Under the pieces are notes generated by a model, which had not been told where the DNA came from, did not search any database, and saw nothing but the letters and a program-made list of their open reading frames with translations. The translations under genes and the position numbers were made by a program. DNA of 39,493 nt from Clostridia bacterium (GTDB lineage Bacteria > Bacillota > Clostridia > Christensenellales > Aristaeellaceae), in NCBI GenBank assembly GCA_017448975.1, contig JAFSKN010000008.1:1-39493 (forward strand), read 5' to 3'. Below are positions 5,295 through 35,249 of this stretch, piece by piece. The stretch's first letter is position 1, and each line of letters begins with the position of its first letter.

Positions 5295-6443
5295 TCAGGT
5301 TTTTATATGCAATTTTTTCAGGACGTCGGACCGTTCTTTGCTGCGATGCAGATCATCGAACAGTTTGGAGCCTCGTTTCGCCGCAATTCCCTGCCGGAAG
5401 TATCGCCCGATCTGATAAACCCAGCAGAGAGGCCGCAGCCATCTATGGTTCCTGTAAATTTCCCAGTGATCTTCCCCTCTCACTTGCAAATAGCGAATGA
5501 TTCCCATTCTTCTGAAAGCCGAGGTAACCGCTTCAACGCCTCTTCCCGCGCCTAACTTATTGCCAAAATTCCCGGTTGAAAGCAGCATATCCATTAATCG
5601 CATGCATAAACTGTCGTCCGCTTCACGGCACCAGGTGATCCGCTCGCTCAAGCCCAGGAAGATTTGGCACATACGCGTAGCATTGATAGCAAGCGTTTGC
5701 AGATTCAGTGTCTCGGCGAGTTTCTTGAATTTTTCTTCCCATTCCTTATCATCCAGCACTTTGTCCACATACATCATCCAGTCGATCATTTGCCGAAGCC
5801 CCATCCCGCTTTTCAGGTGACTCCGCATATGAACAAGCAGGATCAGACCGTTCAGCACGGGATCGAACATCGGAAATGATGCGCCATTGATCTCCTTCGT
5901 TTGGATTTGAGAAAATCCATTTGCGATGTACGGTTCAATATTGATGTCCCGGTAACTGAAATGGTGATGAAGCTCATATATGATGCCTTGTTTAGCGAAA
6001 GCAGTCGTCCGATTATAAATCGTTTCTTCCGACTCCATAACAGCATACCCGCTGTTCTTCATTAATTCTTCCGCGGAATCAAAGAATTTTTGCGGCACGA
6101 TAATATCAACATCCCCCATCGTTCTCAGGGAGGGCCACGGATAATAGATGGCGGCCGCGGAACCTTTTAATATGGCGGAGGGAATGCCGTGCGCTGCCAG
6201 AAGCTGAACCAATTCCTGCTGTGCCTGAAGAACTCTCTCACAAAAAATGACGATCTGATACCATTTCGATTTCCACTCCGACGGAACTTCTTTTATATAC
6301 TTGCTGCTGATCAGCCCGAGAACCGCCTGATCCTGAGCCGTCTGAAACACCTCGTCCCAATCGACGCTGTCCGGCAATTCAGCGTCAATGTTAAACAGCG
6401 ACTCTCTGATCAAACGAAGAAGAATCTGTTCTGATGAATTCAT
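5295..6443 (-). CDS. Uncharacterised nucleotidyltransferase family protein (NTP_transf_5-like)
   Basis: A 382-residue protein of the family called uncharacterised nucleotidyltransferase (Pfam NTP_transf_5). The signature is visible: KGS at 93-95, the YPWPSLR segment, and a DVD metal-binding pair at 111-113 followed by hydrophobic IIVP. Such proteins are frequent in capsule and exopolysaccharide loci, but their substrate is not known. GGAGG precedes the ATG. It is the last gene of the long minus-strand polymer locus, 59 bp after the flippase gene. No clear terminator follows it. Confidence 0.8.
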   Translation of the reverse strand: MNSSEQILLRLIRESLFNIDAELPDSVDWDEVFQTAQDQAVLGLISSKYIKEVPSEWKSKWYQIVIFCERVLQAQQELVQLLAAHGIPSAILKGSAAAIYYPWPSLRTMGDVDIIVPQKFFDSAEELMKNSGYAVMESEETIYNRTTAFAKQGIIYELHHHFSYRDINIEPYIANGFSQIQTKEINGASFPMFDPVLNGLILLVHMRSHLKSGMGLRQMIDWMMYVDKVLDDKEWEEKFKKLAETLNLQTLAINATRMCQIFLGLSERITWCREADDSLCMRLMDMLLSTGNFGNKLGAGRGVEAVTSAFRRMGIIRYLQVRGEDHWEIYRNHRWLRPLCWVYQIGRYFRQGIAAKRGSKLFDDLHRSKERSDVLKKLHIKT

Positions 6444-6502
6444 AATACTCCTCCAATGCTGGTTTCTTTTCGATGAATCGTTTCTTCTGGTGATGCTGCA
6501 TT

Positions 6503-7954
6503 TTACAATAACAATCGGCTGTTTTTTTTGTTTTTGATAAACTGCAGCATTTTTGTTTTATTTCTATATCCGAAATACAATATCATGATTGTATAAACCG
6601 CAACAATGCAGTATCTGAGCGCTGATATTCCATAGAGATAATTCATGATCCCCGATACTGCCAATGTGAGGCCCAAAATCATCAGTATAAATTTGATATC
6701 GTACACGAAGTCCATTTTCAAGCGCTTAACAAGGAAGAAATGCAAAATAAACAGCACGATATACCCTGCGAGCGTCGTATAAGCAGCGATAACGTAACTG
6801 TATTCAGGCGGCCACAGTGGGATGATCAGGATGTTCAGCAAAATGTTAATCGCTGTCGCGATCATTGTTGCAAATGATACCCCCAAAGTCTTCTTTTCAT
6901 AGAATTCGATGTTCACATACATCGTATAGATAAATTGAAACACACAGCTTGCAATCAGGGGCGGAAGGCACCATACGGCGCGCATGTATTTGCTGCTTCC
7001 CAGGATCAGAATGATTTCCGGCACCAATAGCATAACGCCAAGCATCAATGTAAAGAAAACAGCGATGTATTTCCTGGAAGCATTTCTGATTGTTTCATAA
7101 TTCTTATTATGCAGACTCTCCAATAACCACGGAGCCCACGCTTTATTCATAGAATCGAATAAGACGGTAACTACATGATAGGCGGTATAGGCAATGCTGT
7201 ACACTGCTGTATATTCCTCGCCGCAAAACTTTGTGATGATGATTTTATCCGATGCGGCAAGCAAATACAGTGATAAAACGTGAGGAACCAGCGGCAGCAT
7301 AAGAATACTTGCATACTTCCAGTATTGAATTTTTATCCGTTTTCCTCTGCAGGCCAACAATACAAATATTACGAAGCCAATGATGATCTGGGGGAGATAA
7401 TACCCTATGATTCGGCCGCCCAATCGATCCTGCATGATAAAGACCAGCAGCAAGGATAACCCGATTCCGGATACCGCCATCAGTCCTGTCATTGCAACAA
7501 AGGACTTGTACTTATAAAACGCACGATTCTTTGTGATGAGCATGAAATAGGCGGGAGCAGAAAACAGATAGAGAAACATAATGTGGATATACTTTGCTTC
7601 TGTCTCAAACAGATTGGAAAAAAAAGGCATGAAGATACATACAAAAATGTATAGCAACAGTGTCCATAACGTTGACATTGAGAGAATAGACCATATATAA
7701 GAATCGATATCCTCTTCCAATTCAAGTTTTGAACGTATAATGGATTGAGAAAGATCCATAGACGTTACAACGAACAGGATACTCACCCAGGAAGAAAAAT
7801 TGCTGAAGCCGCCGAGCTCTTCCTTCGACATGAGCCTTGAAAAAATCGGCGTCGAAAGAAAGGCCATTCCCTTGAACAGGAAATTGCAAATCGTATACCA
7901 TAGCCCGGCTTTGACAGCAACAGCCCCCGTTTCGATGGATCTATCGTCTGACAT
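6503..7954 (-). CDS. Wzx-like polysaccharide flippase (MOP superfamily)
   Basis: A 483-residue polytopic membrane protein with about 12-14 hydrophobic helices, typical of oligosaccharide flippases of the MATE/MOP superfamily. The N-terminal segment (GLWYTICNFLFKGMAFLSTPIFSR, two separate hydrophobic runs) and the later KAWAPW segment are characteristic. It should move the lipid-linked repeat unit from the inner to the outer face of the membrane. The start at 7954 follows AAGGG and overlaps the polymerase gene by 14 bp, which suggests translational coupling. A longer frame starting at 8011 would overlap that gene further and has no ribosome site. Base composition is visibly AT-richer than the flanking housekeeping genes. 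Confidence 0.88.
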   Translation of the reverse strand: MSDDRSIETGAVAVKAGLWYTICNFLFKGMAFLSTPIFSRLMSKEELGGFSNFSSWVSILFVVTSMDLSQSIIRSKLELEEDIDSYIWSILSMSTLWTLLLYIFVCIFMPFFSNLFETEAKYIHIMFLYLFSAPAYFMLITKNRAFYKYKSFVAMTGLMAVSGIGLSLLLVFIMQDRLGGRIIGYYLPQIIIGFVIFVLLACRGKRIKIQYWKYASILMLPLVPHVLSLYLLAASDKIIITKFCGEEYTAVYSIAYTAYHVVTVLFDSMNKAWAPWLLESLHNKNYETIRNASRKYIAVFFTLMLGVMLLVPEIILILGSSKYMRAVWCLPPLIASCVFQFIYTMYVNIEFYEKKTLGVSFATMIATAINILLNILIIPLWPPEYSYVIAAYTTLAGYIVLFILHFFLVKRLKMDFVYDIKFILMILGLTLAVSGIMNYLYGISALRYCIVAVYTIMILYFGYRNKTKMLQFIKNKKNSRLLL

Positions 7955-9224
7955 AATGTTTAATCCCTTCCATATTGATCGGCTGCGTTTGCAAACAGCT
8001 CTTTTTTTCATAATACATGGACATTCCTATTCCCAGGCATACCCAATAAGTGGGAGTGGACCAATAAGATAAGGATATAAACAAACAGCAGCTTGAACAA
8101 AACATGGGAATAAAAACATCTCTCCATGCTGTATCAGATGAGAAAATGATTTTTATGGATTTATACATGAAAAAGGCAAAAAGAGCAAATCCCGGCAATA
8201 CGCCATAATCAATTAAAAACTCTAAAAGAATATTGTGAGGATATCCGGCGGATATATAAGCCGTAATAATATGGCTGGCGCCTTTTGCGCCATAGCCCAG
8301 AGGATTGTTTTTAATCATCTCGATTGCCGCTTGCCATATCTCAAATCGCCCATTATCATCCGCCAATGACCCATCCTGCATTTTTTTTAGAAATCTGGAA
8401 GAAATGCCGAGATTGCTAAGAAGCTCCGAAATCCCATTCATAATATGATCATAATAGTAAATCAATACAGCCGTAACCGCTATGATCGCAAAAAGGTATA
8501 TAATGCCGCTTTTTGAATTTTTTAGCGTTAAAGAGATATAGACAATAATGAGCAAAGCGATAAAAACCATTTGCCCTCTGGAACCATAGGAAAAGATGAG
8601 AAAAATACAGATAACAGCGCTTATGATATCCGATAGTTTTTTTTCCTGCAAAGCGAAATATAAAAACACGAGCGCAAAGGGAAGCACGTTATAACCAAAC
8701 GAAACGCTATAAGTCCCCTGCGTAGCGCCCTTTGCACCCCATAATATCCAGTATCCACGCCGCGTGGCCTGAAGAACATCATAATAAAAGCTCGGCATTG
8801 CAACCCATCCGGAAATGCGCAGATTTCTTTTGATTCTCTCTGGTGAGTCCATGATTCTAATAAACAAATAGGCATATATTCCACGATATGGAGTCAGCAC
8901 ATGGTCCCATACGCCAAAATCCGCCCGTGTATAGTAAGGCAAATATTCCGGATGAATAATTAATGATACTAAGAAGAACAGAAGGACTGCGGCATACATT
9001 GCGAAAAAATCAACTTTAAAATATTTTTCATAATCCATAAGACCGCACAAAAATAGAAAAGCATATGGAATAAAGATGGCTACAGCATATGCAAGGGAAT
9101 TTCTCCCCAAAACAGTATAAGTAACCGCCCTGATCGTTGCGTTTGCGAAATAAAGAATAAAAGCACAATCTGCAAGCGTATTTGTGGAAATCTCTGTGCT
9201 TCTTTCATCTTTTAAATATTTCAT
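7941..9224 (-). CDS. Wzy/O-antigen ligase-like polymerase
   Basis: A 427-residue membrane protein with about 11-12 hydrophobic segments and one large extracytoplasmic loop. That loop carries the Wzy_C hallmark: GRFEIWQAAIEMI, then NPLGYGAKG and later GYPHNILLEFLIDYG. This pattern marks O-antigen ligases and polymerases that join lipid-linked repeat units outside the membrane. The ATG at 9224 follows GAAAGG by 13 bases; a TTG 21 bp earlier is the alternative start. The gene overlaps the flippase gene downstream. It is AT-rich, as polymerase genes in such loci often are. Confidence 0.85.
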   Translation of the reverse strand: MKYLKDERSTEISTNTLADCAFILYFANATIRAVTYTVLGRNSLAYAVAIFIPYAFLFLCGLMDYEKYFKVDFFAMYAAVLLFFLVSLIIHPEYLPYYTRADFGVWDHVLTPYRGIYAYLFIRIMDSPERIKRNLRISGWVAMPSFYYDVLQATRRGYWILWGAKGATQGTYSVSFGYNVLPFALVFLYFALQEKKLSDIISAVICIFLIFSYGSRGQMVFIALLIIVYISLTLKNSKSGIIYLFAIIAVTAVLIYYYDHIMNGISELLSNLGISSRFLKKMQDGSLADDNGRFEIWQAAIEMIKNNPLGYGAKGASHIITAYISAGYPHNILLEFLIDYGVLPGFALFAFFMYKSIKIIFSSDTAWRDVFIPMFCSSCCLFISLSYWSTPTYWVCLGIGMSMYYEKKSCLQTQPINMEGIKHYVRR

Positions 9225-9282
9225 CTGATGATAAGCGCCTTTCAAAGCATAAGCATCGTAATTGGAGGGCGGCTAAACCAGT

Positions 9283-10458
9283 TTAGACCATCAGCTCCAT
9301 ATCAGCCATCAATGCTTCAACTTCTTCCTTGATGCCGTGCTTGTAAATAATCTGCGGGCCGATAAACTGCGTCATGCCGTTGCCTTCCACAACAACCCAG
9401 CCCTGCTCCGTAAAGGCCACATCCCAGCCGATACATTTGACGCGGGGAATCAATTCGGCCATTTCACAGCACATCGCCTTCATTTTATCCCACAGGGGGA
9501 AAACATAGCCCTTGAACGTGACGCCGGAATCCGGATGCCGGACATATTCCGTAGTAAGCTCATCATATCCGTGGGTTGTTATTGTGCCTGTTTCCACATC
9601 GATGCCGGCCAGAATGCCTCCGGCGCCGCCGTTGTCGACAAAAGAACCGTTTCGGCCCACTTTCAGGAAGGTATAAGGAATCACGATGCCGTGCTTCGTT
9701 TTCATCGTGATGCATCTGATCGTGTTGACGCTGGACGCGTTTAACGCGGCCATGACATCGCTCTGAATGATCCGCTCTTCCAAAAGCTGTTCGCCCTGGC
9801 TGATCATATTATGGAACAGCGCGTTCAAGTCGCTTTTCGTAGAATCTACCAGTTCAACGCTTTTCCCCATGCCTCCAAATACGCCTTTTCTTACAAACAC
9901 AGGCGTCGTTTTGCAAAAAGCGAGAAATTTGTCCAGGTCGCGCGGATTTTTGATGCCGATGGCAGCCCTTTGATAGTATTTTTTGAATTTATTGTATGTT
10001 TTCGCCTTATTGTTAAACAACTGAGCCGCCTTTAAATCATTCATGGAAAAAATTTTGATATATCTGTCCAGATCAGAGATCCATTTCTTTTTTTCTTCGG
10101 GACCCAGCTGATCGAATCCAAAGCAAAGATACTCATCCGGTTGGAAACCATAGGCCAGCTTGCAAAACAGCATATCTGTCCTGATGGCATTTTTATTATC
10201 GCTGTTTTTATACCGTTCCGCTCTCTCCAAAACCTGATCGGCCAGCTTGCAGCTATACGAAAGACCAACCCAGTTCCGCTTCAGATAATCATTGACGATT
10301 TCTGCTTTGGCCGCGTCGCTCGCTTCGCCGCGCTTAATGTCCGCTTCGGGAATGAAGTAGGAAACGGTCCGCCTGATTCTGACTTTTGATATCAAGCTGG
10401 TCATGACCCGTACATTCGGAACGCAGCTCACGATTTTGTCAATTGTTGCCGACTTCAT
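9283..10458 (-). CDS. Sugar-transfer-associated ATP-grasp protein, paralogue 1
   Basis: A 391-residue soluble protein of the ATPgrasp_ST family. Visible features are FVRKG at 188-192 (putative ATP-contact Lys191), the glycine-rich GGMGKS loop at 195-200, EER at 227-229, SSVNTIR at 242-248, FVDNGGAGG at 273-281, GWDVAFT at 344-350, and VEGN at 357-360 (likely metal ligands). ATP-grasp enzymes join a carboxylate to an amine or thiol through an acyl phosphate. The substrates of this family are not established, but members cluster with sugar transferases. The start overlaps the preceding gene by ATGA, with AGGAG 8 bases upstream. It is a clear paralogue of the proteins at 10455-11636 and 13874-15112. 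Confidence 0.85.
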   Translation of the reverse strand: MKSATIDKIVSCVPNVRVMTSLISKVRIRRTVSYFIPEADIKRGEASDAAKAEIVNDYLKRNWVGLSYSCKLADQVLERAERYKNSDNKNAIRTDMLFCKLAYGFQPDEYLCFGFDQLGPEEKKKWISDLDRYIKIFSMNDLKAAQLFNNKAKTYNKFKKYYQRAAIGIKNPRDLDKFLAFCKTTPVFVRKGVFGGMGKSVELVDSTKSDLNALFHNMISQGEQLLEERIIQSDVMAALNASSVNTIRCITMKTKHGIVIPYTFLKVGRNGSFVDNGGAGGILAGIDVETGTITTHGYDELTTEYVRHPDSGVTFKGYVFPLWDKMKAMCCEMAELIPRVKCIGWDVAFTEQGWVVVEGNGMTQFIGPQIIYKHGIKEEVEALMADMELMV

Positions 10459-11636
10459 ACTTCCATCTCCTTGAGCAATTGTTTCATCGTCTGCTGCAGT
10501 CCGCCTAAAATCATCTGCTGCGCTATGATATGCGGGCTGTCATTCCCCTCGACCATGACCCATCCGTTTTCCGTATGGGCAAAATCCCAGCCGACAAAGT
10601 TGATCTTTTCCGATTGATTCGCCGCTTCTTCGCTCAGCGCCTGCAGCTTGTCCCATTCCGGCAGCTGGGCTCCCTTGAAAACTGTGCCGGTGTCAGGATG
10701 CGCGGGGCAGATAAGGCCCTTTTCGTCATAGCCGTCCGTTTTGAGCTTCCCCGTGGCATAATCGATGCACGCGATGAGGCCGCCGTTTCCGCTGTTGTCA
10801 ACGAAAGCGCCCTTGCGTCCCATTCGCAGGATACAGTAGGGAACCACGATTCCTTTCTTCGTTTTCACGGTGATGACGCGAACCGTATTCACGCTTGTCT
10901 CGTTGAACGCTGAAAGCGCGTTGCTTTGCCGTATGCGCTCTTCCAGTACATGGATGCCCTTATGAATACAGGCGTTGAAGAACGCGCGTTCATCTCCCAT
11001 CTCGGCTCTTTTTACCAGGCTGACGCCTTTACCGAGGGAATCCAGGGCATTTTTCAGCACGAATTCCTCGTGCGTACTGACGAACTGATGAAAACGGCCG
11101 AAATCCTGCGGTGTTCTGATAGCGATTACATTTCTGTGGAAGTATTTTTTATACTTTGCATACGTCTTGCTCTTGTCGATGAAGATATTCGCGGCGAGAA
11201 TATCGTTCATTTTATAGCGATAGATGCGCCGCTGCTGGTCGGATACATAGGATTTCCTTTCCTCCATCCCCCGCCTCTCCAAAGAGAAAGCAGCGTATTC
11301 CCCCGGCAAAAAACCGTATGCGATCCGGCAAAAGCGCATATCGGTGCGAATTGCGTCAAGTTCATCCGCGCTCAGGGATTGATAGCGAACGCACGTTTTA
11401 ACAGCTTCCTCTAATTCATCCTCGGTTTTTGAGAGAAAGGCGCCAAGCTTACCCTGATATTTGGAAAGAATCGTTTCTTTATTGTGAAGGCTTTCTTCCC
11501 CATACCGAACATCTTCCTCGGGGATCAGCGTAGCCAGCACGGCCTTTTCCATTTTGTCGGAGATAAGCTTTCTTACAAAAGGAACATCCGGAAGCTGATT
11601 CCTGACAAAGTATCTCAGTCTAGCATATTTTCTCAT
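10455..11636 (-). CDS. Sugar-transfer-associated ATP-grasp protein, paralogue 2
   Basis: A 393-residue ATPgrasp_ST protein that shares most landmarks with its neighbour at 9283-10458. These are an N-terminal helical domain with TDMRFCRIAYGFLPGEY, then FVLKNA, a glycine loop containing LGKGVSLV, SVNTVRVIT, FVDNSGNGG, GWDFAHTENGW and VEGND. The start at 11636 is chosen because GGAGGGG lies 4 bases before it. A longer frame would run back through the SDR gene and is rejected. It overlaps the SDR gene by 17 bp and the next ATP-grasp gene by 4 bp. Role by family and context: an amide- or ester-forming ligase acting on a surface-polymer intermediate; the specific reaction is unknown. Confidence 0.85.
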   Translation of the reverse strand: MRKYARLRYFVRNQLPDVPFVRKLISDKMEKAVLATLIPEEDVRYGEESLHNKETILSKYQGKLGAFLSKTEDELEEAVKTCVRYQSLSADELDAIRTDMRFCRIAYGFLPGEYAAFSLERRGMEERKSYVSDQQRRIYRYKMNDILAANIFIDKSKTYAKYKKYFHRNVIAIRTPQDFGRFHQFVSTHEEFVLKNALDSLGKGVSLVKRAEMGDERAFFNACIHKGIHVLEERIRQSNALSAFNETSVNTVRVITVKTKKGIVVPYCILRMGRKGAFVDNSGNGGLIACIDYATGKLKTDGYDEKGLICPAHPDTGTVFKGAQLPEWDKLQALSEEAANQSEKINFVGWDFAHTENGWVMVEGNDSPHIIAQQMILGGLQQTMKQLLKEMEV

Positions 11637-12525
11637 AAATCCCCTCCACCATCCGATCCATATCCATGGATGGTTTCCAGCCCGTATCCGTCGTAAACCG
11701 GGTGCTGTCCATACCCGACCAAAGCTCCGTATCATCTTCAGTCAGTTCGATCCGCACTTCCTGGCCGTGCTTTTTTGCGATACGCGCAACGGTATTCGCC
11801 ACTTCCATCAGCGAATAGCGCATTCTGTTGGGCCCCACGTTGTATAGCGGTTTCCATGCGCCGTCACGCGCCAACAGCGCGGCAATCGCCCGGGCGACAT
11901 CCGATTGATCGATGTAGGAGAAGGTCTGCTTTCCGCCTTTCAGGCTTAAAACGCCTTTCTCCTTGGCGTCTTTGCAAAGTCTCGGGATCAGATTTTGGCT
12001 CTGCATGACGTAATCCAGCCGCAAAACCGTGTATTCAAAGCCCGGCGCGCCTATGAACCGGCTCTCCAGAAGCTTTTCGCCCGCGTATTTCGCCATGGCG
12101 TAGATGGATTCGGGAGACGGCGGAAGCGCCTCGGCGCGCCATTCCGGCGTTTTTCCGTATACGGATTGACTTGAAAGATAAACGATCCTGGGAACCTTCC
12201 TGTCGTACAAACGCTGATAGGTCTTCCGCGCGTAATCCAGGCTGTCGGCAATCTCCGCGCTGGGCCTGTTGCCGCGCGCGAAAGCCATATGGATCGCCGC
12301 CGATATCTTCAGCCCATCCCAATCCCCGGAAAAAAAATCCGTCTGATCCATCACGACGATGCCATCGCGCTCCGGGATATGCTCTCGCTCAAGCATGTCA
12401 TAAGCCATTTGCTTATCAAGCGATACGCACACGATCCGTCCCTGCCCCCGGCTGACCAGTTCTTTGACGAGAGCGCCGCCAAGACGGCCGTCAGCGCCGG
12501 TAATCAATACATACCCGTCATTCAT
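11620..12525 (-). CDS. NAD-dependent epimerase/dehydratase (extended SDR)
   Basis: A 301-residue extended short-chain dehydrogenase/reductase. GADGRLG at residues 10-16 is the GxxGxxG dinucleotide site, SSQSVYG carries the catalytic Ser region, and YAMAK is the YxxxK catalytic pair. Such enzymes epimerise, dehydrate or reduce nucleotide sugars. The substrate cannot be read from the sequence. The start overlaps the stop of the preceding ATP-grasp gene by ATGA with only a weak ribosome site, so translation is probably coupled. Its place between ATP-grasp ligases suggests that it prepares a sugar or sugar acid used by them. Confidence 0.85.
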   Translation of the reverse strand: MNDGYVLITGADGRLGGALVKELVSRGQGRIVCVSLDKQMAYDMLEREHIPERDGIVVMDQTDFFSGDWDGLKISAAIHMAFARGNRPSAEIADSLDYARKTYQRLYDRKVPRIVYLSSQSVYGKTPEWRAEALPPSPESIYAMAKYAGEKLLESRFIGAPGFEYTVLRLDYVMQSQNLIPRLCKDAKEKGVLSLKGGKQTFSYIDQSDVARAIAALLARDGAWKPLYNVGPNRMRYSLMEVANTVARIAKKHGQEVRIELTEDDTELWSGMDSTRFTTDTGWKPSMDMDRMVEGIYEKIC

Positions 12526-13820
12526 AGATCGTAATCAATCCTTTCCCTCAGGTCGTTGATATCATGCCCGGGCAGGAAAATATTCCTGTTTTCGTCATCC
12601 ACGACCCTGAACAGCGAATGCATCTTCTGGATCCTTTCAAACAGCTGCTCCTTGTTGTCCGCCATGATGTGGATTCTGGAAACCAGCTGAAGCAGCGTTC
12701 CCGCGGTATGCTCCCTGACGCGCGTTCCGGGCGCGTAGCTCTTGCCGACCTTGATGACCCAGGGATAAGAATTGAGGGCTTCCAGATTCAGATACCTGTC
12801 GCACAGCATACCGGGTATGCCGATCACGTTCCAGGTGGCATACCACCTTTTGAACCGGGCATCGAATTTCTGGAATCGGCCCATGCTGCCCGTCAGGCAA
12901 TAATAGGCCAGATGCTCAAGGGTGTTGTAATCATTTTCAACTTCAAGGATCTCATAGGTCTTGCATCCGTTCAGGCGCATTCCGGCTTCATAGAAATACA
13001 CCTTGCCATCGTGCACAACCGCCTGCATGAACAAAGAACCGTTCTTTACGCCGATTCCTTTCAGCATATTGATGACCTTGTCGTTGACGGTTTCGTAATA
13101 CAGCTCCGTATACCGCGAGGGATAGACATACATATCCGGCACCTTCATGACGCCTTTTTGCGACTCGTTGAAATACCTGTCGTGAATGGCCGCCAGCTGA
13201 ATATCCCCGTCCTGGGCAATATAGGTTACGTTGATCTCGTCATAGGGCAGATAGGCTTCCACGATCGCTCTTCCGGAATGAGAGGCGTTCCTGGCGGATT
13301 GAAGGCCGGCTTTCAGTTCCGATGCGTTCCTGCATACCACAAGCCCTCTGCTGGAACTGTTGTCAACGGGCTTGACAAGCACAGGATATTCGATGGAAGC
13401 ATCGTCGCAATCCTGCTCTGAGCTGATTTCATACAGACGCGGAACAGGCACGCCGTAGGCCATGCATGTCCGCTTGAAGAATTCCTTGTCCGCGGACATC
13501 CTGACTTGTTCCTTGGTAAAAGGCGAATAGGCGCCGATCTTTTCGGCGACGTCTGCGGCGATAGGCAGCACCCGATCCACAAACTGCGTGATCACGCCGC
13601 TGTAATTCTCCCGCCTGCAGAGCTCCGCGATAGCGTCAACGTTGAAAGCATCGACCTCGAAAGCCTCGTCCGCTATGCGTTTAATGAACGTATCCTTGTT
13701 GTAATCCGTCACGCCCAAGAGGGCGCCATTCCTGTGACAGATGTCCACCAGACCCGCGGCGGTTTGCACACCGCCAATGAGCAAAAGCTTCTTTCCTTGA
13801 ATATTGGGATTCTGATTCAT
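12522..13820 (-). CDS. ATP-grasp ligase (carboxylate-amine ligase type)
   Basis: A 432-residue ATP-grasp protein of the CarB/PurK/D-Ala ligase type, distinct from the three ATPgrasp_ST paralogues. The N-terminal pre-ATP-grasp domain begins LLLIGGVQTAAG. The ATP-binding region has YPVLVKPVDNSSSRGL, IVEAYL follows, and EAGMRLNG provides the likely metal-binding Glu and Asn. The family makes amide bonds from a carboxylate, ATP and an amine; the substrate is unknown. ATG at 13820 and GTG at 13823 are both possible, with GGAG 7-10 bases upstream. Its stop overlaps the SDR start, so it probably works with that enzyme. Confidence 0.85.
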   Translation of the reverse strand: MNQNPNIQGKKLLLIGGVQTAAGLVDICHRNGALLGVTDYNKDTFIKRIADEAFEVDAFNVDAIAELCRRENYSGVITQFVDRVLPIAADVAEKIGAYSPFTKEQVRMSADKEFFKRTCMAYGVPVPRLYEISSEQDCDDASIEYPVLVKPVDNSSSRGLVVCRNASELKAGLQSARNASHSGRAIVEAYLPYDEINVTYIAQDGDIQLAAIHDRYFNESQKGVMKVPDMYVYPSRYTELYYETVNDKVINMLKGIGVKNGSLFMQAVVHDGKVYFYEAGMRLNGCKTYEILEVENDYNTLEHLAYYCLTGSMGRFQKFDARFKRWYATWNVIGIPGMLCDRYLNLEALNSYPWVIKVGKSYAPGTRVREHTAGTLLQLVSRIHIMADNKEQLFERIQKMHSLFRVVDDENRNIFLPGHDINDLRERIDYDL

Positions 13821-13873
13821 CACTTCACATCTCCTTCATGTTTATTTATCCATCCGGATCATCTTAAGGACGA

Positions 13874-15112
13874 TCAGCGCATATCATAGGGGCATATCAG
13901 GTCCATAGATTTCATAATAGATCTCAGCTCTTCTTTAACACCCTGCTGCTTACACGCCTGAAAAACATATTCACCCGATGGGTTAATTTCAACAATGACC
14001 CATCCATTGTCCGTATATGCCAGGTCAAAGCTTTTGTATTTCATCTCACGAAACAGTAAGGATGCATCCTGCGTGATCTCCAACGCCTTTTTCCAATCCG
14101 GCAGAACAAACCCGTCATATTGAACCCCTGAATCAGGATGCGTGATGTATTTATTGCCAAATTCATCTACCCCGTCAGAAACAATCTTTCCCTGCTTCAC
14201 GTCAACCAAAGCAAGGATGCCGCCTGACCCGCCATTATCAACAAACGAGCCTGCTCTTCCTGTTCTCATGAAGCCATGCGCCAGGTTTACTCCTTCCCGT
14301 GTAAGATAGGAGGCGATTCTGACCGTATTGACAGAGGATGCGTTAAAACAGTTCATCTTTTCGCTCTGCACAATGAATTCCTCTACTAACGTTTTTCCAT
14401 GACGCAAAATATTCAGAAAATCGCTTCTGTGATCATCCGTCGCTGTTTCAAGCCATACGCCTTTTCCCATCGATGCATTTACGATTTTTACAACATAGGT
14501 CGGATGTGCGGAAACAAAATCCAGGTATTTCCTGTAATCGCTTTTTCTTTCTAAGGATACAGCGTCTCTTTTATACCATTGCTTAAAAAAGTCATATACT
14601 TTTCCCTTGTCAGCAAAAACCGACTGTGTGAAATCATTCATCGATTGCTTTGTGCATTTTCTCTCTGTTTCAGAAACGAATAATCGCATACCTTTCTCGG
14701 CCAAATGGAAATAGGCGTATTCTTTTGGGAGAAATCCATACGCGAAAAACGCGTACTCCATATCCAGATGAAGCAGTGCTGATCCATCCATATTGTACCG
14801 TCTATCCCGAATGACGGCCTGAATCAGTCTGCTGCATTTTTCGGCCTGCTTCGGGTGCTTTCGTTTATGCGCTTCTATTTTTTCCGCTCTGCATTCAGGA
14901 TTTGCTTCGCATTTCTCCAATTGCTCAGCGGGCAATAAAAATTTTGTTGCCTGGTCAATATATTTCTTTGTAAGGTATTTCTTCGCGGAATAAGGAAAAT
15001 GGAACAGCGCGTTTCTAAAAGCGGCTTTGGAAATCCGCTTTATTTGTCTTAAGGCATTTTTCCTGGTAAGTTCAGGGCTTTTTCGCTGGCTGTTCGGATT
15101 TGCATATGCCAT
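13874..15112 (-). CDS. Sugar-transfer-associated ATP-grasp protein, paralogue 3
   Basis: A 412-residue ATPgrasp_ST protein with a basic N-terminus. It carries LDMEYAFFAYGFLPKEY, YVVKIV, a glycine loop (SMGKGVWLE), SVNTVRIAS, FVDNGGSGG and FDLAYTDNGW. The final metal-site region differs from the other two paralogues: VEINPSG instead of VEGN, closer to classical ATP-grasp enzymes. GAGG lies 8 bases before the ATG at 15112; a TTG further upstream is rejected. It is more diverged than the adjacent pair at 9283-11636, so it likely has a different acceptor or donor. It follows the aminotransferase-like gene by 53 bp. Confidence 0.83.
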   Translation of the reverse strand: MAYANPNSQRKSPELTRKNALRQIKRISKAAFRNALFHFPYSAKKYLTKKYIDQATKFLLPAEQLEKCEANPECRAEKIEAHKRKHPKQAEKCSRLIQAVIRDRRYNMDGSALLHLDMEYAFFAYGFLPKEYAYFHLAEKGMRLFVSETERKCTKQSMNDFTQSVFADKGKVYDFFKQWYKRDAVSLERKSDYRKYLDFVSAHPTYVVKIVNASMGKGVWLETATDDHRSDFLNILRHGKTLVEEFIVQSEKMNCFNASSVNTVRIASYLTREGVNLAHGFMRTGRAGSFVDNGGSGGILALVDVKQGKIVSDGVDEFGNKYITHPDSGVQYDGFVLPDWKKALEITQDASLLFREMKYKSFDLAYTDNGWVIVEINPSGEYVFQACKQQGVKEELRSIMKSMDLICPYDMR

Positions 15113-15165
15113 GATGAATACCTCTTTCACTGATGCGTCAGACAAATGCTCTCATCGATATTGCA

Positions 15166-16143
15166 TCAAGAGCATTGGCTTTTGATGATATCAGCCATCT
15201 CCTCCATCTCCTGCTCGGTATATCTATGATCTACCGGAAGGGGCAGCAGCCAGCTGCTTAACCATGCTTCCATGGAATTTTCAGGCACCTCGTCAAAAAG
15301 ATACTTCCACCATTGGGGAACATAAATTTTCCTTCCCACAACTTTGCTTCTTAACGCGGCATCTTTGATTACAAGGGGATAAACAAAAGGAGCGAATCCC
15401 TCCATAGGGATCTTTAATTGATTCATATCTCTGAATTTTTCAATGAGCACCCTATAATTATTGTCGCGGCGCTTTGCCAGGTCATCATAATTCACGGATT
15501 TTAACATTTTCCTGGTCAGAATTGACATCCTCTTAATTCCATCCGCCAGGCAGACTTTGCTGTCAAGATTGTCATGGTAAGCGGCGTTGGTTCCCAATTC
15601 GATGCTCTTAAAGAGGAAACTTGCCCGATCCCAGGAAACATCCTGCGGATAATCCTCAGACACCTCTCTGCCGCCGCTCCACACCAAATATCCGCCATCC
15701 ACAAGGCCGACAAATTTCCTTGGCGAATAGACGTTCATACAGTTGCCGTCAAGGATAGGCGCGGCATAGAAAGCCTGGGTATTATCAAAGATTACGTTTT
15801 TGTATTTTTTCGCGATTTTTTCGATCTTGCCGTCAGAGAATACGCCAAAATAGTGAACGTATAAGACCCAGGCGTTCTCTTCAATTGCTTCAAGTGCTGG
15901 CTCCAAATGCTCATCTAAACAATAGAATTGAAACGATATGCCGGCGTTTTCCAATGCCTCTCGCACGACGGAGCAATTGTAATACGGAATATACAGCTTT
16001 GAGGGCTGAACCGTTTTGACCGCGGCCACAATGGAAGCTCTTCCGCTGTTGAACCGCGCCACCTTTGCCTGTTTGTATCGGTCAAACAGTTCGTTCCCAT
16101 CATTTAATTCAAGCGGCAAATACCCGCCAAATTCGCTTGTCAT
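15166..16143 (-). CDS. DegT-fold PLP-dependent aminotransferase-like protein
   Basis: A 325-residue protein with the fold pattern of DegT/DnrJ/EryC1 sugar aminotransferases but shorter than the usual 370-390 residues. FNSGRAS near residue 33, IFDNTQAF (Asp expected to contact the pyridine nitrogen) and SPRKFVGLVDGG (Lys in the position of the PLP lysine) are visible. The conserved C-terminal part is reduced. It could make an amino sugar or be a non-canonical homologue. GGAGG lies 7 bases before the ATG, which overlaps the phosphoglycosyl transferase stop by 4 bp. Family is inferred from motifs only; confidence in catalytic activity is moderate. Confidence 0.65.
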   Translation of the reverse strand: MTSEFGGYLPLELNDGNELFDRYKQAKVARFNSGRASIVAAVKTVQPSKLYIPYYNCSVVREALENAGISFQFYCLDEHLEPALEAIEENAWVLYVHYFGVFSDGKIEKIAKKYKNVIFDNTQAFYAAPILDGNCMNVYSPRKFVGLVDGGYLVWSGGREVSEDYPQDVSWDRASFLFKSIELGTNAAYHDNLDSKVCLADGIKRMSILTRKMLKSVNYDDLAKRRDNNYRVLIEKFRDMNQLKIPMEGFAPFVYPLVIKDAALRSKVVGRKIYVPQWWKYLFDEVPENSMEAWLSSWLLPLPVDHRYTEQEMEEMADIIKSQCS

Positions 16144-16937
16144 TGCGTATCCTCCAGATGATATACTTCTTTGGCCTCTCTCAAACTGATTGCATGGCCT
16201 TCATCATCATAGCCGATAAAATAGCTGAGCCCACCGGCGTGATTTGCGCGATTTTTCATGTTGAATGTCAGCTTAAACAGTTTAATCAGCATCATGATAT
16301 CCGTCTTGAAGCTGATATTTTCCACATACCAAATGTCATTTTCAAATTTCCAGTAATAATTATTCAGCTTGCTTCCTTCCGGAACGGTGTACGGACATTC
16401 GAGCCCGGGCTTTACCGCATGCCGCATCTTATGGCGTTCGCTCATTCTCTCTACAAAAAACTCCGGCAGTGGCCTTGGGCCGATGAGACTCATATCGCCC
16501 TTTAAAACGGACCATAGATTCAGCAATTCGTCCAGAGAGTATTTTCGCATGAATTTGCCGAATTTTGTCACTCGCTCACTTGCCGGAAGCAGCTTGCCGT
16601 CCGCATCCTTGTTGTTGTTCATGTTTCTGAACTTGATCATTGTAAAAGGTTTTCCGTCTTTGCCGATCCTTGTCTGCTTATAAAATATGGGGCTTCCGAC
16701 GTCAAAGAAGGTACATATTCCAAATATGATGTTGAATGGAAGAAGAATAACAAATGCAGGGAAACTGATGAAAAGGTCTAAGCACCGCTTGATGCATTTT
16801 GCGTATAAATTGCTTCTTGGAACGGCCTTTTTATCGGCCGCGTTTGTCTTTTCCAAATTGCGGTTCTTCAGGAAGGAAGCATATCGCTCCTCCTCTTTTG
16901 AAACCAAATTTTTATTCCCTACCGTTGCGTTCTCCAT
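16140..16937 (-). CDS. Initiating phosphoglycosyl transferase (stand-alone catalytic domain)
   Basis: A 265-residue bacterial sugar transferase. A basic N-terminus leads to one membrane segment (about 50-75), then the catalytic region with KFRNMNNNKD, SLDELLNLWSVLKGDMSLIGPRPL split across the usual motif, and PGLECPYTV. This family transfers a sugar-1-phosphate from a nucleotide sugar to undecaprenyl phosphate and so begins repeat-unit assembly on the cytoplasmic face. It lacks the four-helix N-terminal half of WbaP-type enzymes; that half appears instead fused to the ketoisomerase at 19050-20180. GGAG lies 7 bases before the ATG. Confidence 0.9.
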   Translation of the reverse strand: MENATVGNKNLVSKEEERYASFLKNRNLEKTNAADKKAVPRSNLYAKCIKRCLDLFISFPAFVILLPFNIIFGICTFFDVGSPIFYKQTRIGKDGKPFTMIKFRNMNNNKDADGKLLPASERVTKFGKFMRKYSLDELLNLWSVLKGDMSLIGPRPLPEFFVERMSERHKMRHAVKPGLECPYTVPEGSKLNNYYWKFENDIWYVENISFKTDIMMLIKLFKLTFNMKNRANHAGGLSYFIGYDDEGHAISLREAKEVYHLEDTQ

Positions 16938-16952
16938 TCAAATTCTCCGTTC

Positions 16953-17918
16953 TTAAAGCTTTTTCCTGAATGTATACTTCAAACTGCGCTCACAGCCTAC
17001 GCTCTCTTTGAAATTGCACAGCCCGTAGTTTGGCACGCTGTCTTCCGTGGATATGGCCTTGTCCAGAATCTTGTATCCCATTTTTCCGTAATACCTGATC
17101 GTATACCAAGTGAGCAGATTCATTCCGTTACAATCCATGTAATCCGGATGTGTTCCGGTATAGATGCCTTGAACGATCCTGTCGTTGATTCGATACAGCA
17201 CTTCGGCAACGATGTTTTTATTTCCCTGCTTTACGATGAATGCGTCATGCTCAACCAGCTTCAAGGTTTCCATCAATTGCTCGTAACTCAGCTTCACAGG
17301 AAAACCTTTTGATTCATGGCCGATCTGAATCGTTTGATACGCTTCTTTGTAGTCTTCTTCCGTTTCACATTTCACGATTTCAAGCCCGGATCTTTCAGCT
17401 TTTCTTAACCCCTTCCGCCCTTTCTGCGTGATCAGCTGTTCATAGGCTTCTTCATCCACATTCAGCTTTTCAAGGTTTAAAGCGTAATTGATATCCACGT
17501 TCTCAACGGCATAGCTGTTTCGATAGAAGCTGTTCACCCATCCGCTGAGAAGATGTTCGTCATAAAAGAGGGGGGGGAAGATAAACCGAATACTCTCTGC
17601 GTTTTCGCCTTTGCAGTATTCCTCGAAAACCGTCAAGGCCGCGTCTATCGTCTCCTGCTTCGATTCATTGATAATGGCGACCGGATAAGAGTAGGGGGCT
17701 GAAAAAGGAATTCTCATTTCCTTTCCAATTCTTCCCGCAATCAATCCATACCTTGCGGAATTCTCGCGCGTTAGAATCAGATAATGGACATCGTCCGCTT
17801 TATGCTCATTCAGCTTTGTAAATCTTGGCTCGTTAAAGAACACACGTCTGTCCGGAACGATCGCTTCATATTCGTTCGCGCTTACTCTTTTGACATGCCA
17901 GAGGGACTTTTCCTCCAT
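16953..17918 (-). CDS. FemAB/GNAT-like acyl or aminoacyl transferase
   Basis: A 321-residue protein with a double-GNAT layout like FemAB and its acetyltransferase relatives. The stretch GRKGLRKAERSGLEI near residue 180 matches the conserved segment between the two GNAT halves in these proteins, and the later VQGIYTGTHPDYMDCNGMN is also typical. Members move acyl or aminoacyl groups onto amino sugars or peptidoglycan peptides. Beside an FdtA/FdtB pair it may take the place of the usual FdtC-type N-acyltransferase, but this is inference. GGAGG precedes the ATG at 17918; the longer frame is rejected. Confidence 0.72.
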   Translation of the reverse strand: MEEKSLWHVKRVSANEYEAIVPDRRVFFNEPRFTKLNEHKADDVHYLILTRENSARYGLIAGRIGKEMRIPFSAPYSYPVAIINESKQETIDAALTVFEEYCKGENAESIRFIFPPLFYDEHLLSGWVNSFYRNSYAVENVDINYALNLEKLNVDEEAYEQLITQKGRKGLRKAERSGLEIVKCETEEDYKEAYQTIQIGHESKGFPVKLSYEQLMETLKLVEHDAFIVKQGNKNIVAEVLYRINDRIVQGIYTGTHPDYMDCNGMNLLTWYTIRYYGKMGYKILDKAISTEDSVPNYGLCNFKESVGCERSLKYTFRKKL

Positions 17919-17947
17919 GATACCACCTCCGCCATAAGGGACCTCAC

Positions 17948-19042
17948 TCAAAATTCATTGATGCTGTCGATGACGTACTGTATCTCTTCGTCAGTTATTC
18001 CGTAATACATCGGAATGCTCAGCTCCGTAGAACTGATCTCCTCCGCGATCGGATAGTCTCCTTTCACGAACCCCAGATTCTGATAGCATTCCTGCAGATG
18101 CATCGGAATTGGATAGTGTTTGTTTGTGAGAATGCCCTTATCGTTCAGGTGCTTCTCCAGCCTATCCCGTTCCTGGCATCGCACGCCGAAAATATGCCAT
18201 ACGGGAACGCAATGCTCATTGACCGTCGGCAGCACCACTTTCGGATTCTGAATCTGCGTCAAATACCGATCCGCAATTCGTCTTCTTTCCTTGTTCATGC
18301 GTTCCAAATGCGGCAGCTTGGCGGCCAAAAAAGCCGCCTGCAGTTCATCAAGCCTGCTGTTGTTGCCTTGGTAGATATGGTGATACTTGTAATCAGAGCC
18401 ATAATTGCCAAGGGCCCTTATCTTCGCCGCAAGCTCTTCATTATTCGTAATAACCGCGCCGCCATCCCCCAAAGCCCCAAGGTTTTTACCGGGATAAAAG
18501 CTGAAACCGGCCGCGTCGCCGAATGTTCCGACTTTCTGGCCCTTATAGGTCGCGCCGTGAGCCTGCGCACAATCCTCAATAACGCGCAAGCCATATTGCC
18601 TGGCGATCTTCATGATGGCGTCTATCTCACAAGCCTGTCCGTAAAGATGAACCGGTATGATGGCTTTTGTCCTGCTTGTGATCTTTTCTTCGATTCTTTG
18701 CGGATCGATGTTGAAAGTCTCGAGCTTTGGTTCAGCAAACACCGGTTTTGCACCAACGTACGTGACAGCGAGCGCTGTTGCAATAAAGGTGTTGGACGGA
18801 ACGATCACTTCATCCCCTTCACCAATCCCCAGCGCTTTCAGGCACAGCGTCAGCGCGTCCAAACCATTCCCTACGCCTACGCAGTATTTTGCCCCGCAAT
18901 ACGCGGCGAAAGCTCTTTCAAACGCCTCATCTTCAACGCCTTCGATATACCAGGACCGAGAAAAAACCCGGTCAAACGCGCCTCTCAAATCATCATTCAA
19001 TTCTTTTTCCATTGGCAAAAAAGTAATAAACGGTATTTTCAT
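17948..19042 (-). CDS. fdtB: DegT family sugar 3-aminotransferase (FdtB/QdtB-like)
   Basis: A 364-residue PLP-dependent aminotransferase of the DegT/DnrJ/EryC1/StrS family, of full expected length. [15 protein letters not shown] (Asp contacting PLP) and [15 protein letters not shown] (Schiff-base Lys) are present. Together with the FdtA domain upstream it most likely converts a dTDP-3-keto-6-deoxyhexose into dTDP-3-amino-3,6-dideoxyhexose (Fuc3N or Qui3N); which one depends on the partner ketoisomerase. The start at 19042 lies 7 bp after the preceding stop, with GGAGG 12 bases upstream. A longer frame reading back through the FdtA gene is rejected. Confidence 0.83.
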
Positions 19043-19049
19043 GCGTTTT

Positions 19050-20180
19050 CTATGCCTCCGCGCTCTCTCTGTATTTCTTGCTGTATGCAATGAATTCATC
19101 GTAATTTCTGATATATTCCTGCGCGTCATAGTATTCAGACGCCAGCACACAGAGTATAGAACCGCTTTGCTTCCAAACCATTTCCCTCCAAAGGCCAGGC
19201 ATAATGAGCAAGCCCTTTCCGGGTTTATCCAAGGTGACCGTTGTCTTTTGCTCGCCGTCATCCAGGAGAATATCGATAACGCCGTAGGGACAGTAAAGGA
19301 GCTGGCAATTCAGCTTGTGGGCGTGAAAGCCGCGATGAAGGGCCGCTTGTGTTTCTGTAATCCAATAAACTCTTCGGATTTGAAACGGAACGTCTCGTTT
19401 TCCTTCCAGAAAGAACAGTGATCCAAACTTTGGATCCTCATACTGTTTCATCGTTACATCGATCACCCGGTAATGAAAATCGACCAGATCCAGATTGATT
19501 TTCATCTCTTTACACGCGTTCGACAGGTATTCCGGCACCATTTGATGATTCAGCCCATAGATGTATATTTTATCAATTTCCTTCCAACAGATGACAGAAG
19601 CCGCTTCCTTCACATCCTGCACAACCGGAATCCCATTTATCTCCGTTTTATCGTTCTTTTCAAGAAAATACAGATATTGGACATGATAATTCAACCCTTG
19701 CAGGCTTTTTATGCCTTCATCGACAAACCGGTCTGTTGTCATCAGCAAAACCGAAGGTTTCCCCGGCTTCCGACGGCATTTGGCAAGAATATATCTCCAT
19801 GCTGTTCTGAATAATACAATGAGCCCAAAATATATTCCATAAGACGTTATGACCGCTACGCGAGAGTAATCAGCGCTCGTTTTTGTCAGGAATAAATACA
19901 GGCCCAATATGAACAGACAGATCAGCGTATGTCTTGCTGATTCAAAAAGCTCTCTGCGTTTTCTCCAGCGAAGTGCAAGGCTGAGCGTATTGAACACCAA
20001 AGTAACGATGATATCGATAACGATCATGATCGACACGACAGAATAGTTAAACCTTCTGTGGCTTAATTCCAGATAGATAGAATAAGCCAAATAGCTTGAA
20101 AGTATGATACATGCTAAGTCCAACAGCAAAAAGCTTAAATATTTCAGGTGACCATAGCGCAGCGCCGAAGGCATTCGCAT
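19050..20180 (-). CDS. Fusion of WbaP-type membrane/Rossmann module with FdtA sugar ketoisomerase
   Basis: A 376-residue two-part protein. Residues about 10-130 contain four hydrophobic helices and about 140-240 a Rossmann-like domain. This layout matches the N-terminal half of WbaP/WcaJ-type polyprenyl glycosylphosphotransferases. The catalytic transferase domain is absent. Instead residues about 245-365 form an FdtA/QdtA cupin, with the conserved RGFHAHK near 285 and the expected hydrophobic strands and GLWREM segment. FdtA isomerises dTDP-4-keto-6-deoxyglucose to a 3-keto sugar for the aminotransferase next door. AGGAGG is 7 bases before the ATG at 20180. The fusion would hold the sugar-nucleotide enzyme at the membrane. 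Confidence 0.8.
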
Positions 20181-20323
20181 AATCATACCTCCTATGATAA
20201 AAGGATGGCGTGAGGCTCTTGAGCGTAAAAATGAACGAAAATCTTCCTGAGATCGCAGTAAGGAACGTTCGTGTTTCTTGTGACGAATGAGCCGAATTTT
20301 GTCTTATATGATCGCGTCCTCCT

Positions 20324-26203: not shown

Positions 26204-26207
26204 AATA

Positions 26208-34653: not shown

Positions 34654-34756
34654 AGAGTTGAGAGTGGAGAGTTGAGATTTACATAGCGAATATGTTCAGA
34701 AGCCTAATGGAAAGACTATCTATGATCTCAACTCTCAACTCCCAACTCTCAACTCT
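34647..34756. repeat. Heptamer-array inverted repeat, copy B
   Basis: GAGTGAAGAGTTGAGAGTG and related heptamers on the left pair with ATCTCAACTCTCAACTC on the right across a loop of about 46 nt. The left arm supplies the TGA stop codon of the SH3/C39-like gene. The right arm ends shortly before the ribosome site of the phosphatase gene. Its loop shares TATGATCTC with copy A. Confidence 0.8.
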
Positions 34757-34778
34757 GCTCGAAGGGAGATCGATTGCA

Positions 34779-35249
34779 ATGCTTCGAGTCCTTATGGTTT
34801 GCCTGGGCAATATCTGCCGCAGCCCCATGGCGGAATTCATTTTTCGGGATATGGCGGAAAAGCGGGGCCTGGGCGGGGAATTCTTCATCGCTTCCGCCGC
34901 CACCAGCGACGAGGAATACGGCAATCCCGTGTACCCGCCCGCTCAACGGAAGCTCCATTCCTTAGGCATCGATTGCCGGGGCAAACGCGCCCGGAAGATG
35001 ACCAAAGCGGATTACGACGAATATGACCTTCTGATAGGCATGGAAAACCGCAATTTATCCAACATGCGCCGCATCTGCGGGGGCGACCCCAAGGGCAAAA
35101 TCCATCTGCTGCTGGAGCACAGCCCTCGCCCTCGGGACATTGCCGATCCCTGGTATACCGGGGATTTCGACACGGCCTGCGACGATATTGTGGAGGGCTG
35201 CGGACAGTGGCTGGACAAACTTCAACGAGAGTTAAGAGTGAAGAGTTGA
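34779..35249 (+). CDS. Low-molecular-weight protein tyrosine phosphatase
   Basis: A 156-residue cytoplasmic phosphatase. CLGNICRSP near the N-terminus is the Cx5RS phosphate loop and DPWYTGDF carries the general-acid Asp. In many Gram-positive polymer systems such enzymes dephosphorylate the tyrosine autokinase; here that partner would be the product of the gene at 26208-27656, about 7 kb away, so the pairing is inference. AAGGGAG lies 10 bases before the ATG. The last residues (RELRVKS) and the stop codon are encoded by heptamer repeat C, so the C-terminal tail was probably altered by the repeat. Confidence 0.92.
   Translation: MLRVLMVCLGNICRSPMAEFIFRDMAEKRGLGGEFFIASAATSDEEYGNPVYPPAQRKLHSLGIDCRGKRARKMTKADYDEYDLLIGMENRNLSNMRRICGGDPKGKIHLLLEHSPRPRDIADPWYTGDFDTACDDIVEGCGQWLDKLQRELRVKS

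Follow-up and report, generated by a model that had tools for sequence, protein, structure and literature searches.

A Wzx/Wzy-type surface-polymer operon with several ATP-grasp ligases and no recognisable glycosyltransferase in a Clostridia bacterium

The usual guide to a surface-polymer locus is its set of glycosyltransferases (GTs), and a locus that encodes the machinery to start, export and polymerize a repeat unit, yet no recognisable GT, raises the question of how that repeat unit is built. Such a locus lies in the window analysed here, the entire 39,493-base contig C14 (GCA_017448975.1, JAFSKN010000008.1) of a Clostridia bacterium whose draft genome comprises 3.08 Mb in 80 contigs at 85.4% completeness (L, G and C numbers are our handles for loci, genomes and contigs). 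Its operon groups an initiating phosphoglycosyl transferase (PGT), a Wzx flippase, a Wzy polymerase and a putative Wzz/BY-kinase, as does the Wzx/Wzy-dependent capsule/exopolysaccharide pathway of the BY-kinase type, but carries ATP-grasp ligases instead of a recognisable GT; its siblings in other genomes add acid- and amino-acid cassettes. At least one GT in the locus building a multi-sugar repeat is usual in that pathway, though not strictly defining, and none is found here. We consider it probable, though far from assured, that the operon directs a surface polymer of the Wzx/Wzy-dependent kind with a repeat of one N-acylated amino sugar and amide-linked non-sugar residues, which would need no GT.

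The operon consists of 15 minus-strand genes that run from 27656 to 5295 as a single transcription-unit-like array, listed here in order of transcription.

26208..27656, minus strand: putative Wzz/BY-kinase, a predicted chain-length regulator with a tyrosine-kinase-type domain, first gene of the operon (Pfam AAA_31, 5e-14)
20324..26350, minus strand: secreted RHS/YD-like repeat protein of 2008 residues with a 32-residue period (Pfam RHS_repeat, 4e-9)
19050..20186, minus strand: N-terminal half of a large PGT (CoA_binding_3) fused to a dTDP-sugar 3,4-ketoisomerase of the FdtA type (Pfam FdtA, PF05523, 1e-38; CoA_binding_3, 1e-7)
17948..19261, minus strand: DegT/DnrJ/EryC1 sugar aminotransferase (Pfam DegT, PF01041, 3e-121)
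16953..17951, minus strand: FemAB/GNAT-like N-acyl- or aminoacyl-transferase (Pfam FemAB, PF02388, 8e-7)
16140..16937, minus strand: initiating PGT of the small type (Pfam Bac_transf, PF02397, 3e-50)
15166..16143, minus strand: divergent DegT-like aminotransferase-fold protein (hhalign to DegT profile, E 1e-4, probability 58%)
13874..15145, minus strand: ATPgrasp_ST ligase, paralogue C (PF14397, 3e-38)
12522..13823, minus strand: ATP-grasp_4/D-Ala-D-Ala-ligase-like protein (PF13535, 3e-10; PF07478, 1e-8)
11620..12525, minus strand: NAD-dependent epimerase/dehydratase (SDR), forming a pair with the preceding ATP-grasp_4 gene (PF01370, 1e-20)
10455..11735, minus strand: ATPgrasp_ST ligase, paralogue B (PF14397, 2e-42)
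9283..10458, minus strand: ATPgrasp_ST ligase, paralogue A (PF14397, 7e-44)
7941..9245, minus strand: Wzy polymerase, assigned by homology (PF04932, Wzy_C, 9e-20)
6503..8011, minus strand: Wzx flippase, assigned by homology (PF01943, 1e-17)
5295..6443, minus strand: NTP_transf_5 nucleotidyltransferase-like protein, ending the operon (PF14907, 3e-39)

Intergenic gaps within the operon range from -212 to 137 bases. The larger overlaps presumably reflect start-codon choice, the repeat protein probably starting near 26203, the DegT aminotransferase near 19045 and paralogue B near 11633. A 12/12 match to the sigma-70 consensus lies at 27819-27791, upstream of the Wzz/BY-kinase gene, and is the sole perfect match among the nine sites of the scan (6.5 expected). 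The Wzz match of the first gene product (8e-5, 23.3 bits) falls just below its Pfam cut-off of 25.5, and the repeat protein shows autocorrelation peaks at 32 and 64 residues. The first-pass annotation had named the proteins of this locus correctly and placed all of them where they are. Its range, 5295..20180, holds the right genes inside but leaves out the first two of the operon, the Wzz/BY-kinase and the repeat protein.

In Pfam searches with a limit of E 0.1, none of the 15 operon proteins matches a GT family. In an NCBIfam scan of 10 operon proteins, the GT-like entries among the best 25 matches listed were PGT-type families only, two of which have 'glycosyltransferase' in their names. Home-made profiles, built from 7 GT2 and 6 GT4 domains that this genome itself encodes and then iterated once, match nothing anywhere on the contig, and the 12 open reading frames flanking the operon in the window are without a GT match in Pfam (2 of the 12 have no match of any kind). 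The claim of the first-pass annotation that Wzx, Wzy and a PGT stand here without a GT agrees with both the Pfam and the profile searches, and its four ATP-grasp genes (9283, 10455, 12522 and 13874) are recovered by Pfam as three ATPgrasp_ST members and one ATP-grasp_4/Ddl-like protein.

The three ATPgrasp_ST proteins score 150.5, 145.8 and 132 bits against a curated PF14397 cut-off of 31.4, which the 12522 protein, at 18.6 bits, does not reach, placing it outside the family; the other two members share 41% and 34% identity with 9283. Thirteen positions are invariant in 28 relatives (9283 numbering: K151, K191, G198, Q232, N245, R248, G268, N276, G291, P309, D346, E358 and N360), of which we take K151, K191, D346, E358 and N360 to be catalytic-type residues, namely conserved lysines and acidic or asparagine metal ligands. 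The structure model of 9283 (pLDDT 93.5, pTM 0.90) finds its best solved folds in RimK, ArgX, PsnB, LysX and the D-Ala ligases (Ddl), with a TM-score against RimK of about 0.45 by query and 0.59 by target at 12% identity; among 507 matches at E <=0.001, other ATP-grasp enzymes, GAR synthetase and biotin carboxylase among them, rank lower. On this model, 9283 is confidently predicted to have an ATP-grasp fold of the amide-ligase type with its catalytic-type residues kept; ATP-dependent amide formation would be the predicted activity. Iyer et al. 2009 reportedly predicted ATPgrasp_ST proteins to be polysaccharide-linked ligases, a family of which the window holds three members with invariant catalytic-type residues; the literature that we searched, to which that paper did not belong, contained no published multi-ligase operon without a sugar transferase.

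In a phylogenetic tree the paralogues fall into three old groups, all of which have orthologues in other loci: A (9283, support 88/79), B (10455, 99/98) and C (13874, 100/99). Of the loci that the tree covers, four carry B, namely the window, L025, L026 and L032, and these are the ones in which the ATP-grasp_4-SDR pair stands beside it; the pair is also adjacent in L019 and L049, there without B. Separately, an ATPgrasp_ST gene at L005:7999-9060 (G000 C1:138013-138777) has no polymer genes around it and has a match at E <1e-40 in 19 of the 22 other genus and family genomes listed. Three neighbourhoods of this type were viewed (its own, L022 and L023), and the gene may have a housekeeping role.

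The operon and its genome together encode the four enzymes expected of a pathway to a dTDP-3-amino-3,6-dideoxyhexose. RmlA and RmlB give dTDP-4-keto-6-deoxyglucose, which FdtA and DegT convert to a 3-amino sugar in the Fdt and Qdt systems; RmlA (468 bits) and RmlB (466 bits), both above cut-off, lie together on contig C5, and the ketoisomerase and transaminase are in the operon. A single nucleotide sugar, presumably dTDP-3-amino-3,6-dideoxyhexose, would be supplied in this way. By homology, the PGT, which shares 76% identity with the PGT of L027, would load the sugar-1-phosphate on undecaprenyl phosphate. For the FemAB-like protein, the closest PDB sequence is an aminoacyl-tRNA-dependent peptide synthase, a weak match at E 0.05. 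The fusion protein covers positions 1-223 of the 445 of TIGR03025; here a ketoisomerase is joined to a large PGT's N-terminal half, whereas the PGT catalytic half is a gene of its own, and a similar protein (3e-140) is encoded at L055:7392-8546.

We consider next whether this layout recurs. A pattern scan with the three ligases over one genome per species (84,980 species) returned 17 loci, five of which (L025, L027, L030, L032 and L039) hold a PGT, a flippase and a Wzy without GT2 or GT4. L060, reached through the Wzy profile in the genome of L029, is a sixth GT2/GT4-free locus. In L026, L028 and L029 the PGT, flippase and Wzy are joined by a single GT2; the 12-kb contig of L031 holds a GT4 but no PGT; L036, L037 and L040 carry GTs; no complete polymer locus is seen at L033, L034, L035 or L041; and L038 is a partial locus (PGT, PrpD, ATP-grasp, ATPgrasp_ST) without GT2/GT4. 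The layout is therefore not strict, given the single GT2 of L026, L028 and L029 and the GT4 of L031. The genomes of the related loci are labelled Lachnospiraceae and Clostridiales, and that of L026 Oscillospiraceae. Pfam places none of 32 otherwise unlabelled proteins of the six loci (five from L025, eight from L027, ten from L030, four each from L032 and L039, one from L060) in a GT family, a scan that leaves leader genes and outer flanks mostly outside. The 27,950-base contig of L027 has no GT2/GT4 match, nor do the 33.9 of 40.2 kb viewed of the L032 contig, where CpsB/Wzz/CpsD-like and leader genes lie upstream; CpsB/Wzz/CpsD-like genes precede L025, L032 and L039 (CpsB recognized by eye). 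Of the GT matches listed in the genome scan for the contigs of L025 and L039, those near the loci fall in each case in a second unit that has leader genes and a PGT of its own (L051 beside L025, with Wzx and Wzy; L053 beside L039, with Wzx), and a third, C26:129669, is far from the locus.

In the closest sibling, L027/L055, the sugar module of the window (repeat protein, CoA_binding_3-FdtA fusion, DegT, FemAB and PGT) is retained, but its ligase part is replaced by PrpD, a protein of unknown family, a 2-hydroxyacid dehydrogenase, ATP-grasp, a C-C bond lyase, fumarase, one ATPgrasp_ST, CapA, Wzy and the flippase. L030 has RmlA, RmlB, DegT and RmlC in its upstream part and a cassette of PrpD, Ldh_2, ATP-grasp, a C-C lyase, both fumarase parts and three ATPgrasp_ST genes, L039 and L060 have an SbnB/OCD-like gene, and in L014, from another genome, two ATPgrasp_ST genes occur with a Mur ligase, CapA, LicD and an alanine-dehydrogenase-like gene, again without GT2/GT4. 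Therefore, given these acid and amino-acid cassettes, supply genes occupy the position where GTs would be expected. L014 further contains a LicC-like gene, a PglF-like dehydratase and DegT, and a protein of about 300 residues in the acid cassettes of L027 (4161-5069) and L030 (3066-3959) has no Pfam or NCBIfam match up to E 0.01.

The Wzy type of the window is shared by eight loci: the window itself, L025, L027, L030, L031, L032 and L039 (33-43% identity), and L060. Seven of the eight are free of GT2/GT4, the exception being L031 with its GT4. The one-GT2 loci L026, L028 and L029 use a different Wzy (that of L026 has PF04932), without a match to the window type in these loci or, at 1e-20, in the genomes of L026 and L028. 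At the same threshold the Wzy profile matches 9 of 391 genomes of the class, the window's own and eight distant ones, so the system is rare among class genomes; the distant loci include L047 (G628) with GT2 and GT4, L048 with GT4, L050 with GT2, and L049, on a 6.7-kb contig, with neither PGT nor GT. The flippases of L030 and L032 are near the window Wzx (1e-161 and 3e-200; 50% and 63% identity), whereas those of L025, L027, L039 and L060 are of another type. Against a home-made flippase profile that excludes this other type, these four score 1e-14 to 1e-17, compared with E 5 to 9 for two control proteins, and they are presumably flippases. Three of them (L025:13794-15314, L027:13641-15203 and L060:7838-9382) form a family of 58-62% identity.

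Neighbourhoods drawn from the same class show how unusual a PGT without GTs is: 19 of 20 control PGT neighbourhoods (11.7-19.9 kb) contain GT2 or GT4, and the exception, L075, has no flippase match either. The control comprises 20 of the 31 non-window matches to the PGT profile, which found mostly ordinary PGTs, and speaks on PGT neighbourhoods in general, since a flippase was detected in only 4 of the 20. Of four further PGT-profile neighbourhoods, L044 and L048 have a GT, while L045, on a 6.3-kb contig, and L046 do not. GT-free loci make up 7 of 10 with PGT, Wzx and ATPgrasp_ST, versus 0 of 8 with PGT and Wzx but without ATPgrasp_ST (Fisher p 0.004); we give this result no weight, because two of the eight, L008 and L053, were chosen for holding GTs, L031 and L051 were omitted, and the 13 seed proteins of the flippase profile were labelled by eye or similarity and came in several cases from the compared loci.

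From these data we propose the following route. RmlA and RmlB, encoded elsewhere, with FdtA and DegT would make dTDP-3-amino-3,6-dideoxyhexose, from which the PGT would transfer sugar-1-phosphate to undecaprenyl phosphate. The sugar amine may then be acylated through amides with amino or hydroxy acids, in a single step or several, by the FemAB-like protein and the ATP-grasp ligases; each of paralogues A, B and C would add one residue, and the building block of B would come from the ATP-grasp_4/SDR pair. Wzx would flip the repeat unit across the membrane ahead of Wzy, which would form the sole glycosidic bond, from C1 of the sugar to a hydroxyl of the previous unit, on its sugar or on an amide-linked hydroxy acid, and the Wzz/BY-kinase would set chain length. 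The gene content, the missing operon GT and the recurrence of the layout are read from sequence and the 9283 fold from its model; we infer from them the substrates, the order of the steps, the bond types and the independence from supply in trans. The proposal of the first-pass annotation that ligases build part of the repeat unit on an amino-sugar primer is borne out in part, on the side of the genes: FdtA and DegT in the operon and RmlA-RmlB on C5 fit the primer, no GT is found in the operon, 9283 is modelled with an amide-ligase fold, and homology searches with ATPgrasp_ST and Wzy proteins, in line with the neighbourhood survey that it suggested, have brought up six further PGT, flippase and Wzy loci without GT2/GT4. 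Its suggestion of sugar acids as joined units gains no support: the Pfam scan of the operon shows no UDP-sugar dehydrogenase, and the siblings carry organic-acid and amino-acid genes. A bolder extension is that these loci define a new polymer class made without any GT, with one lipid-linked amino sugar per repeat that ATP-grasp ligases extend by amide-linked amino or hydroxy acids, an alternating sugar-amide chain in which Wzy acts through a hydroxyl of the acyl part and which diversifies from locus to locus by swapping acid and amino-acid cassettes; this we put forward as a tentative idea that may well prove wrong.

Several observations weigh against a GT-free repeat unit. The GT2 and GT4 profiles are blind to other GT classes. 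Elsewhere the genome, 85.4% complete, has 12 PF00535 and 10 PF00534 matches, some of them clustered on contigs without a PGT. Related units do carry GTs: L026, L028 and L029 add one GT2 to the PGT, ATPgrasp_ST and Wzx core, the control locus L069 combines PGT and ATPgrasp_ST with two GT4 genes, and a PGT relative in G527 lies among six GT2 genes, so neither the PGT nor ATPgrasp_ST by itself implies a GT-free unit. Among the supporting loci, the contig of L060 is truncated at its left end, and that of L027 has, on the opposite strand just past the flippase, a YfhO gene (PF09586, 2e-75), which we take to be a GT-C-like protein of lipoteichoic-acid glycosylation; the absence of GT2/GT4 from this contig therefore does not extend to all imaginable GT classes. 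Pfam gives no match up to E 1 for the flippases of L025, L027 and L060 and none up to 0.01 for that of L039, and hhalign of the L025-type flippases against the window Wzx group is not significant (E 0.06), which is why their identity in these four loci stays at the level of presumption. The YfhO and flippase caveats touch four relatives, not the window.

The reading in which GTs encoded elsewhere complete the repeat in trans, for instance from the GT-rich C71 cluster, with the ATP-grasp enzymes merely decorating it, takes up some of these points. GT clusters are found on C71, C61, C30 and C53 and the three other PGTs of the genome on C30, C59 and C64; a PF02397 search finds no PGT on C71, C61 or C53, so that their GTs may pair with the PGT of another contig, and exchange between loci is possible because C71 combines GTs with a gene that looks by eye like a flippase but has no PGT match. 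Three related loci also retain one GT2. However, seven loci in seven genomes would all have to have lost their own GTs, the neighbours of L025 and L039 form separate units with their own PGT and flippase, and the entire 28-kb contig of L027 is without GT2/GT4, and we hold supply in trans to be unlikely. A slightly stronger case, albeit still a doubtful one, can be made for a form that lies within the favoured reading, a one-amino-sugar polymer with a purely glycosidic backbone to which the ATP-grasp enzymes add side chains only. The same gene evidence speaks for it, nothing decisive speaks against it, and the number of ATPgrasp_ST genes varies from 1 to 3 across loci of the same Wzy type, as side chains would; an excerpt of PMC3210612 describes a comparable one-sugar polymer from Microbulbifer, GalNAcA6(D-Ala), with amide-linked D-Ala.

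That the putative Wzy instead acts as a ligase or oligosaccharyltransferase, moving a single sugar-peptide unit to a protein or the cell wall without any polymer, seems to us distinctly improbable. PF04932 is named O-antigen ligase and its family includes such enzymes, and the large secreted repeat protein of the operon could be the acceptor, but a Wzz/BY-kinase (its Wzz match just under cut-off) heads the operon, and CpsB/Wzz/CpsD-like genes stand before L025, L032 and L039, as in polymer loci. Least probable of all, to the point that we reject it, is a GT fold hidden in one of the operon proteins. The 15166 protein has no Pfam match and its single-sequence structure model is of low confidence (pLDDT 35), and NTP_transf_5 is an uncharacterised family; PDB sequence searches with these two proteins and with the ATPgrasp_ST profile gave no informative match. 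The check for such a fold, however, turned up none in the operon: 15166 aligns to DegT and to a relative, L048:2792-3934 (BLASTP E 5e-11), that has weak sub-cut-off WecE-type matches, the NTP_transf_5 protein matches PF14907 at 3e-39, and 9283 is modelled with an amide-ligase fold.

The favoured reading, a repeat of one amino sugar and amide-linked residues, has partial counterparts among known systems. According to an excerpt of PMC11800379, the C-terminal TupA-like ATP-grasp amidoligase of Campylobacter jejuni Cj1438 makes a capsule amide. This resembles the proposal in that an ATP-grasp enzyme forms an amide in a capsule, but, as that excerpt describes it, the enzyme is of the TupA-like family, has the C6-carboxylate of glucuronic acid as its target and is fused to a GT2 domain. 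The teichuronopeptide/TupA system (in the part of PMC8153356 consulted) and the poly-gamma-glutamate CapA systems likewise yield polymers with amide-linked amino acids. CapA-like (PGA_cap) genes occur in L025, L027 and L014, whereas none of the 15 proteins of the window operon matches PGA_cap or a Mur ligase, and a poly-gamma-glutamate (CapBCA) system is accordingly rejected for the window. For the proposed chemistry, the excerpt of PMC3210612 offers malic acid that is amide-linked and O-glycosylated, a linkage through 2-hydroxyglutaric acid, and N-acylated Qui3N/Qui4N. The polymers with malic or 2-hydroxyglutaric acid, which have a hydroxy acid in the chain, and the GalNAcA6(D-Ala) homopolymer, which has one sugar per repeat, come close to the proposal; they are from Gram-negative marine bacteria, and the comparison is one of chemistry rather than of gene clusters.

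If the favoured reading is true, coats built largely from amides would recur in several Clostridia and be missed or misread by glycan-typing schemes, the acid- and amino-acid-making genes would be a candidate source of coat diversity, and the uncharacterised ATPgrasp_ST family would gain a testable role.

Some further features of the window and its relatives may be noted. The RHS-like repeat protein has a homologue (6.5e-75) upstream of the sibling locus L055, and its relatives beside polymer genes include proteins of 1204 residues at L055:3017-6631 and 488 residues at L024:14915-16381. The latter gene adjoins a relative of the NTP_transf_5 protein (E about 1e-63) at L024:13761-14909; L024, a GT-containing locus from the same family, has two ATP-grasp_4-like genes nearby. 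On the contigs with L051/L025 and L053/L039, two polymer loci stand in tandem, one with GTs and one without, and similar sets of three uncharacterised leader genes lie ahead of both. In the window, a low-molecular-weight tyrosine phosphatase at 34692-35249 might serve the BY-kinase, and a sigma factor and anti-sigma-type kinase pair at 35355-36723 resembles sporulation SigF/SpoIIAB.

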